Below, piece after piece: positions 8,355 to 10,550 of a DNA stretch of 12,494 bases. Numbering within the stretch: position 1 is the stretch's first letter; every line of letters begins with the position of its first letter. The DNA is from Candidatus Sulfotelmatobacter sp. (GTDB lineage Bacteria > Acidobacteriota > Terriglobia > Terriglobales > Acidobacteriaceae). The translations under genes and the position numbers were made by a program. The notes below the pieces were generated by a model that worked only from the letters and a program-made list of their open reading frames with translations, searched no databases and was not told the origin of the DNA. Location: contig JASIKQ010000294.1 in NCBI GenBank assembly GCA_030049565.1, positions 1-12,494 of the forward strand, read 5' to 3'.

Positions 8355-8358
8355 ATCC

Positions 8359-8378
8359 AAAAACTAAGAGTTCCGAGG
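8359..8378 (-). terminator. Possible intrinsic terminator of the candidate RNA
   Basis: The 3' arm CCTCGGAACTCT (8378-8367) of the long-range 12-bp helix is followed by TAGTTTTT (8366-8359). A helix next to a T-tract is terminator-like, but the partner arm is about 145 bases away and the tract has only five consecutive Ts. A second, local pairing (ATCCAA 8389-8384 with TTGGAT 8360-8355) competes. Confidence 0.3.
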
Positions 8379-8392
8379 TGCTGTTGGATCCA

Positions 8393-8511
8393 TTCGTCTC
8401 GGCCAGTAGTTCGCTTTTGACCCTCGCTCGACCTGCAATGCAGTGCGCCCTTGCGGGGGACTGCACGCGATCATTTGCTTGGGCTCCGGGCTCACCGCCA
8501 ACCGGAAAAAC
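8393..8511 (-). repeat. Repeat domain, copy 2
   Basis: This runs from GTTTTTCCGGTTGG (8511-8498) to CTGGCCGAGACGAA (8406-8393). It shares with copy 1 the 14-base opening, the 6-bp hairpin stem (8507-8502 with 8489-8484, 12-base loop), a CAAG after the stem, GGGTC (8423-8419) and 12 of 14 bases in the closing box. Its GNRA hairpin (TGCAGT 8465-8460 with ACTGCA 8444-8439, loop GCAA) is longer than that of copy 1. Confidence 0.7.
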
Positions 8512-8558
8512 CTACCCAACGCCTCGGAACTCTATCCTGCCTTCGACGTTTCTTCTTG

Positions 8559-8667
8559 TTCTTCTCGACCAGCGCGTTGCTAAACGACCCTTGTTTTGCC
8601 CTCCCTCGTCATTTTCATGACAGGGTGACGAAACTTGAGCCCCGGACGCGACACCAACCGGAAAAAC
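8559..8667 (-). repeat. Repeat domain, copy 1
   Basis: This runs from GTTTTTCCGGTTGG (8667-8654) to CTGGTCGAGAAGAA (8572-8559). The first hairpin has stem TTCCGG (8663-8658) with CCGGGG (8645-8640) and a 12-base loop. Where copy 2 has a T-A pair, copy 1 has T-G, so pairing is kept. The second hairpin is CCCT-GTCAT-GAAA-ATGAC-G-AGGG (8625-8603), 9 bp with one bulged G. The offset to copy 2 is 156 bases at the front and 166 at the back. Confidence 0.7.
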
Positions 8668-8694
8668 TTTAGAAGCTGTCAAAGAACGAGTATG

Positions 8695-8728
8695 TTATTA
8701 CCGACTTCCGTTTTTTTCGTCAACGGAA
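8695..8728 (-). promoter_or_regulatory. Possible promoter and operator-like dyad for the candidate RNA
   Basis: On the minus strand TTGACG (8723-8718) and TAATAA (8700-8695) are exactly 17 bases apart; the -35 matches 5 of 6 and the -10 only 3 of 6. Transcription would start near 8688, at the first base of the first predicted helix. A perfect inverted repeat, TTCCGTT (8728-8722) with AACGGAA (8712-8706), straddles the -35 box and could be a repressor site. Confidence 0.4.
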
Positions 8729-8956
8729 AATCGCACTTCGTAACTTTCGTATTTTCAGCCGAGTGCAGGCCGTCCACAGGCTGGTGACGAAAATCAGTGC
8801 AGATGGCGAAAACAAACTCGCGCCCAGAACCTCGGTACCGCGATTGGTCTGAAATGACGCGGCCGTCATCGGCGATAGGAAAATTTCGCATCTTGCCTAC
8901 TGCTGTGAAAAACGCGCAGAACCTGCCAAGCACAGGCATCAGACGCCGCCTTCAGC
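8729..8956. other. Non-coding stretch downstream of the metallopeptidase gene
   Basis: An 86-codon frame on the minus strand (8679-8939) crosses this stretch but has no family features or convincing ribosome binding site, and it would overlap the candidate RNA promoter. I see no CysO/MoaD-like frame here and no clear terminator for the gene ending at 8957. Confidence 0.5.
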
Positions 8957-9394
8957 TCAAACTATTTCCAGTTTTTCGTCTACAAAACCCTTGTCGCTCT
9001 CGTCCGTTCCGCAGAGTTCAAACGAGTTGGTGGCCGCCGACTTTCCTTTTTCCACACTGGTGATGACATAGGAACAAGCGATCCAGTGGGCTTCGGCGAG
9101 ATCCGTGGTCGACCAGCGGGCCGGATGATCTGGATGGGAGTGATAGAAGCCGACGATGTCCTCGCCGCGCTCGCGCCCTTCGCGCTGGATGCGCACCAGT
9201 TCCAGCGGATCGATGTTATAGCGATTCTGCGGAGAATCGGTACGGGTATTGCCACAGCGTACCGTAGAAGTGACCATGCGAACGCCCTCTTCATCGGTGA
9301 ACCGCCCGAGCAGCACGCCGCAGCACTCGTGCGGGTAAGTTTCCTCGCCGTGGCGGCGGAGAGATTCGTACTCGAGGCTAGAGAGCTTGAGCAT
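8957..9394 (-). CDS. JAMM/MPN+ metallopeptidase, Mec-like (CysO-cysteine hydrolase family)
   Basis: This is a stand-alone JAB1/MPN/Mov34 (M67) zinc peptidase of 145 residues. The full JAMM motif is present: Glu23 in YPHECCGVLLG and H85-S-H87-x7-S95-x2-D98 in GFYHSHPDHPARWSTTD, so the two zinc-binding His, the Asp, and the catalytic Glu are all there. Prokaryotic members cleave after the C-terminal Gly-Gly of ubiquitin-like sulfur carriers. Mycobacterial Mec frees cysteine from CysO-cysteine. It lies 172 bases downstream of a cysM-type gene on the same strand, which favours that role. ATG 9394 is used; an in-frame TTG at 9400 adds two residues, and neither has a clear Shine-Dalgarno. A deubiquitinase-like or other carrier-processing role is possible. 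Confidence 0.88.
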   Translation of the reverse strand: MLKLSSLEYESLRRHGEETYPHECCGVLLGRFTDEEGVRMVTSTVRCGNTRTDSPQNRYNIDPLELVRIQREGRERGEDIVGFYHSHPDHPARWSTTDLAEAHWIACSYVITSVEKGKSAATNSFELCGTDESDKGFVDEKLEIV

Positions 9395-9404
9395 TAGCAA
9401 TTGT

Positions 9405-9430
9405 TGATTAATGATTTCTGATTATTGATT
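9405..9430. repeat. TGATT repeated four times at exact 7-base intervals
   Basis: TGATT begins at 9405, 9412, 9419 and 9426 (AATCA on the minus strand), each followed by two variable bases. The array lies directly upstream of the metallopeptidase start. It resembles a short heptameric tandem repeat; no function is evident. Confidence 0.75.
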
Positions 9431-9498
9431 GAAAAGGTCCAGATTCGAATTAAGGCTGTCAATCAAAACCCGGCACCCCAAAGTCGAAAATAAGAAAG

Positions 9499-9548
9499 CG
9501 GAAACATCAATCTATCTCTCCGTCCAGATTTTTGATTCTCCGTTTCCG
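9499..9548 (-). terminator. Weak terminator-like inverted repeat after cysM
   Basis: CGGAAAC (9499-9505) and GTTTCCG (9542-9548) are perfect arms, with an inner ATCAA/TTGAT pair. Read on the minus strand, the hairpin begins 18 bases after the cysM stop and is followed by the T-rich CTTTCTTATTTTCG. The large loop makes it a poor classical terminator. If it works, the metallopeptidase gene would need its own promoter or read-through. Confidence 0.35.
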
Positions 9549-9566
9549 TGTCCCGTGCTGAGCGAT

Positions 9567-10550
9567 TTACTTCTCGCTCCAGAAACGCTCGCTCAAATAC
9601 TTGTCGCCGGAATCGCAGAGGATGGTAACGACGACCGCCTGACGATTTTCTCGCACATGACTGCGCTCGGAAATTTTCAGGCTGCCAACAATCGCGGCGG
9701 CCGCAGAAATTCCCAGTAGCAGTCCGCACTCGCGGGCCACACGCCGCGCCATGGCGTGAGCATCTTCGGTCGCGATCTCGATGTTTTCATCCGCCAGGGC
9801 TGAATCGTAAATTTTGGGAACCATGGCACTGGGCATGTGCTTGGCGCCCTCGATGCCGTGAAATGCCGAATCTGGTTGCAGCGAAATGCAGCGGATAGCA
9901 GGGTTCAGCTCCTTCAAACGGCGCGTCGTACCCATGAACGTTCCGCTGGTCCCAAGCATGGAAACGAAGTGCGTAATTTGGCCTCCAGTCTGTTGCCAGA
10001 TTTCGTTGGCGGTGCCGTGGTAATGCGCAAGCCAATTCGCGTCGTTCGAGTACTGGTCGGCGTAGAAATACAAATCTGGATGGCTGGCGGCGAGCTGGCG
10101 CGCCATGCGGATGGCGCCGTCGGAGCCCTCGCCGGGATCGGTATAAATAATGTTGGCGCCATATGCTGCAAGGATTCGCTTACGTTCGACCGAAACATTG
10201 CTGGGCATGCAGAGCGTGACCGGAAACCCTTCTGCCGCGCCCAGCATGGCATACGCGATTCCAGTATTACCACTGGTGGAATCGAGCAGAATCTTCCCGG
10301 AAGCGAACTGGCCGCTTCGGCGACCTTCGGCGACGATGTTGGCCGCAGCGCGGTCTTTCACCGATCCACCAGGGTTATACCATTCGGCCTTACCCAGAAG
10401 AGCGCTGCCTGGCAAATGCGCGGTGAGACGATCAAAGCGCAACAGCGGAGTGTTGCCGATGCGTGCGAGCAAACTTTGCCCGCTACGCGCAGTCTCCGGC
10501 AAATATTGCGCGGAAGCGTTTGCGGCGATCTCGGCCGGCGCCTGATTCAT
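9567..10550 (-). CDS. cysM: CysM-type cysteine synthase (PLP, beta family)
   Basis: This is a fold-type II PLP enzyme of 327 residues that makes cysteine from an activated serine and a sulfide source. IGNTPLLRFDRL opens the domain. The PLP Schiff-base lysine is K65 in NPGGSVKDRAA. The substrate loop is STSGNTG (91-97), the phosphate-binding loop GTSGT (200-204), and the PLP ring contact lies in LCDSGDKYL. NVSVERKRILAAYGA and AEWYNPGGSVKD resemble the mycobacterial CysM branch, which uses O-phosphoserine and a CysO thiocarboxylate. A Mec-like peptidase gene downstream supports this. An odd point is GISAAAA (280-286) where GIS-[ST]-GA is usual. ATG 10550 gives a 20-30 residue N-terminal extension; GAGAAG upstream is a weak ribosome binding site. 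Substrate choice is inferred. Confidence 0.9.
   Translation of the reverse strand: MNQAPAEIAANASAQYLPETARSGQSLLARIGNTPLLRFDRLTAHLPGSALLGKAEWYNPGGSVKDRAAANIVAEGRRSGQFASGKILLDSTSGNTGIAYAMLGAAEGFPVTLCMPSNVSVERKRILAAYGANIIYTDPGEGSDGAIRMARQLAASHPDLYFYADQYSNDANWLAHYHGTANEIWQQTGGQITHFVSMLGTSGTFMGTTRRLKELNPAIRCISLQPDSAFHGIEGAKHMPSAMVPKIYDSALADENIEIATEDAHAMARRVARECGLLLGISAAAAIVGSLKISERSHVRENRQAVVVTILCDSGDKYLSERFWSEK

Follow-up and report, generated by a model that had tools for sequence, protein, structure and literature searches.

A tandem two-domain structured RNA with a boxA-like 5′ end in Candidatus Sulfotelmatobacter and related bacteria

The minus strand between positions 8689 and 8357 of the window, by which we mean the whole 12,494-nt stretch of Candidatus Sulfotelmatobacter DNA analyzed here, is almost certainly a real RNA gene, as its conserved sequence and fold indicate. 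The predicted product, ~330 nt long, consists of a rod-like module and a second copy of it, joined head to tail; each copy combines a core formed by a conserved internal loop (CCGGRGCYC ... AAGGGUC) with an apical hairpin that varies and often has a GNRA cap. A preliminary description of this DNA had proposed an undescribed-looking tandem two-domain structured RNA, and this was borne out, with covarying homologues and no Rfam family matching the element. As for its role, we give an even chance to the reading in which this is an independent gene for a trans-acting RNA, which would serve as a multivalent scaffold or titrating RNA and would recruit the Nus complex through a boxA. The features assigned to the element are listed below, where R2 is a covariance model of domain 2 built from 62 copies and R1, used further on, is one built from 25 sequences.

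8752..8802, minus strand: predicted upstream promoter boxes, CTGCAC...GTCA...CTGTGGAC-N3-CTGCACT-N4-TGAAAA, conserved in nearly all of the wider copies printed
8718..8723, minus strand: predicted −35 element TTGACG, with TTGAC conserved in nearly all copies printed
8695..8700, minus strand: predicted −10 element TAATAA after a 17-nt spacer, TAAAA- or TACAA-like in relatives at a near-fixed distance
8677..8689, minus strand: boxA-like 5′ end TCGTTCTTTGACA, which doubles as the 5′ strand of the helix closing domain 1
8534..8689, minus strand: domain 1, from RNAalifold, pair counts and a match of R2
8689-8678/8547-8535, minus strand: domain 1 closing helix
8667-8648/8574-8558, minus strand: domain 1 rod helix
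8645-8637/8592-8586, minus strand: domain 1 core
8627-8599, minus strand: domain 1 apical hairpin with a GAAA loop
8367..8533, minus strand: domain 2, from covariation in 62 copies and a match of R2 (E 3.5e-39)
8533-8522/8378-8367, minus strand: domain 2 closing helix
8520-8514/8389-8383, minus strand: domain 2 second helix
8510-8495/8409-8393, minus strand: domain 2 rod
8490-8481/8427-8411, minus strand: domain 2 core
8457-8448, minus strand: domain 2 GCAA hairpin
8357..8378, minus strand: terminator-like end, being the 3′ strand of the domain 2 closing helix followed by TTAGTTTTTGG, from T-richness

The repeats between the two domains were found on the minus strand at the spacing and identity first reported: two copies of the 14-base GTTTTTCCGGTTGG begin at 8667 and 8511, 156 apart, GGGTC at 8590 and 8423, and the boxes CTGGTCGAGAAGAA and CTGGCCGAGACGAA, alike in 12 of 14 bases, at 8572 and 8406. 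The minus strand of this region folds at −136.1 kcal/mol (z −3.9), and none of 100 dinucleotide shuffles folded as well, in agreement with the structured RNA expected on that strand, while the plus-strand fold was weaker relative to shuffles (z −1.97, 3 of 100 as good). The conserved block ends sharply at ~8357 and, in the genus copies, extends upstream through the promoter to ~8800. Copies differ by insertions and deletions whose lengths are not multiples of three, and a coding sequence was rejected on this ground.

Homologous copies provided the covariation that had been anticipated for this RNA. RNAalifold gave 94 pairs in 32 genus copies, 15 of them with changes on both sides. In domain 2, 35 of 52 pairs changed on both sides among 62 copies and 97.8% of 3144 cells were paired, in an alignment that was fitted to the structure of R1 and leans towards it. 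None of 500 shuffles reached any of five measures, and sliding the structure by one to three columns lowered pairing to 33-50%. When the same stretches were realigned by MAFFT without structure, they folded into much the same rod. Domain 1 was compared in 77 copies, of which 45 wider ones were chosen for having TTCTTTG[AG] and fewer than 190 nt in domain 1, excluding TTCTTCG copies and those with the boxA further upstream; both-side changes occurred in 16 of 34 pairs, and 96.2% of cells were paired. This is the conserved fold with compensating changes expected of a standalone structured noncoding RNA gene. The genus alignment comprises 32 of 50 loci and the window, with 18 partial copies omitted; the genus alignments A1-A3 also omit L068, whose 5′ end is missing, and alignment A6 omits L199, L228 and L251-L256.

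Most of the individual helices described earlier hold in the alignments. All 12 pairs of the perfect helix closing domain 2 are formed in each of 32 genus copies, and the bulged helix closing domain 1 has 11 pairs in the genus consensus fold. The apical stem of domain 1 keeps its pairing despite sequence change, with 5, 15, 12, 4 and 9 both-side changes at five of its six pairs in 32 copies, the sixth pair having none and no more than 4 copies breaking any pair. The GNRA-capped hairpin of domain 2 carries a GNRA tetraloop in 46 of 62 copies (GCAA in 44, GTAA in 1, GCGA in 1), the remainder having a loop that is longer in the alignment (14) or another tetraloop (2). One element of the preliminary description, a TTCCGG-N12-CCGGRG hairpin in each domain, stood as sequence (minus strand, 8663 and 8507) and not as a local hairpin. 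The four CCGG/CCGG pairs of that hairpin include 11 mismatched cells in 62 copies (9 A.C, 2 C.A), none of them compensated, while a long-range helix using the same bases, CCGGTTGG/CTGGYCGAG (helix 4), is 99.2% paired with both-side changes in 5 of 14 pairs. The local hairpin was dropped in favor of this compensated helix.

Model building and searches of related genomes, which the preliminary description had suggested, did find homologues. A DNA search of the window's own genome and 40 relatives detected the element in 24 of 25 genus genomes, the own genome included and G019 being the one without it. With contig-end pieces counted, it lies at two or more places in 21 of these 25 genomes and at one place in G000, G012 and G021. 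Sixteen genomes outside the genus gave only chance-level matches in the DNA search (best E 0.025). A 38-base pattern matched 65 stretches in a named genome collection, in records titled Candidatus Sulfotelmatobacter, Acidobacteriaceae, Acidobacteria or Terriglobia. Order-wide, R1 matched 96 of 298 genomes at E ≤ 1, covering 41 of 70 sampled genera, 95 of them in the window's own family, f1, and one (G031) in the sister family, f2. Since the other 202 had no match, under the stricter filters that were applied to searches of more than 40 genomes and that lose weak matches, the RNA is not general to genomes of the order. A phylum-wide draw gave 7 of 396 genomes by R1, all f1, and a class-wide search by R2 gave 27 of 399, of which 26 belong to f1 and one (G760, E 0.044 per genome over 399 genomes) was rejected as being at chance level. 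Within f2, R2 matched 4 of 14 genomes (G029, G031, G032, G038).

The models built from domain 2 also find domain 1, which shows the two to be homologous. R1 had a second match directly upstream of domain 2 (E ≤ 0.1) at 51 of 64 family f1 loci, and 47 of these 51 exceed the best antisense match of that search, the other four scoring below it; the domain 2 model weakly matches its own antisense strand, at up to 26.4 bits in f1 loci and 33.3 bits in L270. Domain 1 of the window itself was found by R2 at 8542-8683 with 43.2 bits (E 2.1e-9), against 20.3 bits for the best antisense match in the window. Five loci (L204, L217, L220, L229, L230) have their boxA-like start and promoter 414-491 nt ahead of domain 2, and single-sequence folds place the extra sequence in a hairpin array inside domain 1. 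Two f2 loci appear to carry about four to five tandem domains. L269 had four sense matches to R2 (59.5, 45, 24.4 and 23.7 bits; best antisense 7.8), and L270 had five consecutive stretches (64.4, 42.9, 30, 16.8 and 7.2 bits), where it is mainly the order and spacing of the stretches, and less their scores, that give the module count, because the antisense strand of the last domain reaches 33.3 bits, above three of the five sense stretches. These RNAs of L269 (G031) and L270 (G029) are ~900 nt long, with inverted GGGATTCA/TGAATCCC strands closing the modules, and the gene upstream of both is presumably aroA-like.

Because one conserved core is repeated, we suggest that the RNA may work by multivalent binding or titration, a reading to which we give somewhat less than an even chance. 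The core would be a candidate binding site presented at least twice, through which the RNA would serve a protein or some other partner as a multivalent scaffold, or would titrate it. Such a display would fit the larger number of modules in the sister family (about four or five instead of two) and the inserted hairpin arrays. Two easy partners are unsupported, since neither exceeds shuffles. CsrA-type ANGGA motifs number 2 in the window copy against a mean of 1.83 in 100 shuffles, so a CsrA-titrating RNA was rejected for that copy, and the longest antisense match to rrn sequence (16S and the stretch that follows it) is 10-11 nt against 8-12 nt for shuffles, so rRNA antisense was rejected as well.

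A different use of the same modules, which we consider unlikely, is that of an ornate RNA assembling with itself, in which modules and GNRA loops would make RNA-RNA contacts as in OLE, GOLLD and ROOL. These are large, strongly structured, hairpin-rich RNAs whose function is largely unknown, and the new RNA resembles them in being highly structured, modular and often GNRA-capped, with expandable hairpin arrays and a palindromic CCGG in its conserved core. For OLE, GOLLD and ROOL, the accessible part of PMC12286853 describes A-minor contacts and kissing loops. However, no covariance model of Rfam, including those of OLE, GOLLD, ROOL and 6S, matched over the element, and at 330 nt the two-domain form falls far short of GOLLD in size. 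The new RNA further differs in repeating one module two to about five times, in its boxA-like start and in having no phage association found.

Turning to transcription, the new RNA very probably has its own promoter and terminator, both of which were recognized by sequence conservation. In nearly all of the wider copies printed, the promoter boxes, TTGAC and TAAAA are found at a near-fixed distance from the boxA-like start, and part of this promoter (GAAAACAAAGCAAATAAA, TTGAC, TAAAA) was read by eye in f2. The upstream-box pattern CTGTGRA-N5-TGCACT-N4-TGAAAA had exact matches only at genes of the new RNA in G013 (2), G018 (2) and G083 (1), with one 3-mismatch match elsewhere in each of these genomes. 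It had no match in G105, which carries the RNA, or in G195, which had no match in the order-wide R1 search; the copy of G105 (L197) and L225 fail the promoter pattern search. No upstream box common with rrn or 6S loci was found by regular expression in nine loci. We infer that the upstream boxes at 8802-8752 are activator sites. At the other end, the T fraction in the 10 nt past the model end is 0.55, compared to 0.22 at 30-40 nt downstream, and it is at least 0.6 in 31 of 64 copies, compared to 0 of 64 at 30-40 nt downstream. A sigma70-type promoter with upstream boxes would drive an independent RNA gene on the JAB/cysK side, with transcription heading for the flagellar genes and stopping short of them at an intrinsic-terminator-like helix and T-run.

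The 5′ end of the predicted transcript resembles the boxA of rRNA operons. The three rrn loci of the genus that were found (L094, L095, L096), none of them from the window's own genome, have TCTTTGACAA ahead of 16S, and the 9-nt core TCTTTGACA is identical in all three leaders and in the new RNA. Among 64 wider copies, 47 have TCTTTGA no more than 400 nt upstream and a further 4 have TCTTTGG there. The variant TTCTTCG is present in 5 (L205, L206, L226, L227, L255), the exact motif is further upstream in another 5, L253 is cut by the locus end, and the remaining two, both f2, lack the boxA-like start. The partner of the motif in the consensus fold is GTCGAAGG, located where domain 1 ends, and in the 77-copy alignment the 3′ strand of this closing helix varies in 88 of 615 cells and the 5′ strand in 9 of 693, a near-invariance that is partly built in because the 45 wider copies were chosen by part of the motif. 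We think that the RNA probably begins with a functional boxA. Since the sequence is paired in the fold and missing from the f2 RNAs, it may instead be only a helix strand with extra constraint.

From the boxA match, an involvement of Nus factors is suggested: the start would recruit the NusB-NusE (S10) antitermination complex, as on rRNA leaders, and this complex would shield the untranslated transcript from Rho. GTTCTTTGACA fits 10 of 11 positions of GYTCTTTAANA, a gamma-proteobacterial consensus for the boxA of rrn operons and CRISPR leaders in the available portions of PMC5725501 and PMC7862264, from which the present motif differs in forming the first bases of a short structured RNA and in being paired in the consensus fold. 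A more specific role, as a decoy or sensor of the Nus antitermination complex coupling rRNA transcription to growth, is decidedly improbable in our view. The rrn-like core and the presence of TTCTTTG or TTCTTCG in all 61 wider f1 copies with enough upstream sequence would suit such a role, whereas the pairing of the boxA in the consensus fold and the two f2 RNAs without it would not, and the two large modules would be left unexplained.

The preliminary description had attached the element to a flagellar operon, and this part was not sustained. Among nine window proteins scanned with Pfam, seven were matched, namely two FlgE/F/G-type proteins (the names flgF and flgG being assigned by order), FlgI, FlgK, a JAB/MPN protein, a PALP (cysteine synthase-type) enzyme and a POTRA protein, and two had no match. 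One of the latter is a 158-aa open frame upstream of flgK (2037-2513), for which a FlgN-like chaperone is our guess from position. The JAB gene and flgF flank the element, which is on the minus strand. The JAB/MPN protein adjoins the PALP enzyme at 8957-10550, and this cysK-JAB pair is kept at 19 of 50 genus loci; such a pairing may point to a sulfur-carrier-based cysteine route. Within the stretch available for each locus, downstream frames of at least 100 aa were present at 37 of 50 other genus loci, and flagellar genes at one of these 37 (L038). Other genus copies adjoin what we take to be, for example, an Rrf2-type regulator or an aminotransferase V-type protein. Recurring neighbor proteins across 61 wider loci formed sets of 13, 11 and 4, presumably OppD-type ABC ATPases, adenosine deaminase-like proteins and, downstream and convergent, carboxyltransferase-like proteins.

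These neighborhoods bear on the idea of tandem aptamers or a two-domain regulatory RNA, of which the two homologous tandem domains stand and the leader aptamer finds no support, conserved sequence indicating a promoter, a boxA-like start and a terminator proper to the element. Tandem riboswitches such as the glycine riboswitch likewise have two similar domains in a row and are leaders of particular genes. Tandem protein-binding leaders such as the pan motif (PMC2864571) are of this kind too, while the new RNA looks standalone with its own terminator. If the element were a leader of the flagellar operon, as a tandem-aptamer riboswitch or another cis-regulatory RNA, this would account for the two similar structured domains and for the position upstream of and co-oriented with flgF in the window and in L038. 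We regard such a leader as highly improbable and rejected it on synteny, the terminator-like 3′ end and convergent neighbors: the first downstream frame is on the opposite strand at 29 of 37 genus loci and at 39 of 61 wider loci (one of the latter from the genus; crude ORF caller), the flagellar genes recur at the single locus given above, and most genus genomes hold the element at two or more places. At genus and wider loci, the element showed no constant place ahead of, and in the orientation of, any one gene family, and because there is no such neighbor, the RNA would act in trans. That the element is a dispersed repeat or mobile element, as its two copies per genome in varied places and near-identical pairs in 4 of 12 genomes might suggest, is scarcely credible given its low copy number, its conserved promoter and fold, its one syntenic site (cysK-JAB), and the lack of any match in viral contigs by the exact 38-base pattern or in phages and plasmids by BLAST, searches on which phage or plasmid origin was rejected.

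Twelve genomes have two full copies. In 8 of them, the RNAs of the pair are 77-88% identical; in the other 4, identity is 98.5-99.7% over the RNA, 79-100% over the promoter and 57-83% beyond it, which looks like gene conversion or recent duplication in some lineages.

The RNA did not correspond to a known family in our comparisons. The window was scanned on both strands with Rfam 15 (4227 models) at E ≤ 10, as had been advised with Acido-1, Acido-Lenti-1 and the c-di-GMP families in mind, and no model matched the element, the nearest match being a 79-nt snoRNA outside it (8298-8220, E 7.2). Likewise, there was no match on the element at 14 wider loci at gathering score or on the elements of L269 and L220 at E ≤ 1. 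6S RNA is a standalone, rod-like bacterial noncoding RNA of a few hundred bases, and the new RNA is similar in these respects without matching its family (RF00013). A separate 6S match was present in 32 of 41 genus genomes, that of the window among them (G000:C186), which together with the missing family match rules out 6S identity. One genome had two equal-scoring 6S matches (G007:C45 and G007:C67), one of them at a contig start. Acido-1 and Acido-Lenti-1 are also noncoding RNAs from Acidobacteria, as stated in the portion of PMC2864571 at hand, and neither is among the window matches at E ≤ 10. An Acido-Lenti-1 (RF01687) was found at L191:2538-2583 (50.7 bits), ~1.4 kb from the copy of the new RNA in L191, as a separate RNA. 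No description of the RNA came up in searches of the open-licence PMC literature or in term look-ups in PMC2864571, PMC11109978 and PMC8632094, and it may have been described elsewhere.

With due tentativeness, the element could represent a new bacterial RNA class in which a tandem-duplicated module is transcribed with Nus factors, as rRNA is, and forms a multivalent RNP scaffold or self-assembles; as a part of this tentative reading, the two gene copies would in some lineages be kept alike, as happens with rRNA genes. A strongly covarying RNA in 41 of 70 sampled genera of an order of soil bacteria, having no Rfam family, is an annotation gap. The variation in module number between lineages, from two to about five, makes the role of a single module a testable question. 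The boxA survey states, in the part of PMC5725501 available, that short standalone noncoding RNAs were not considered, and a functional boxA at the start of this RNA, if true, would extend Nus antitermination to a short standalone noncoding RNA.
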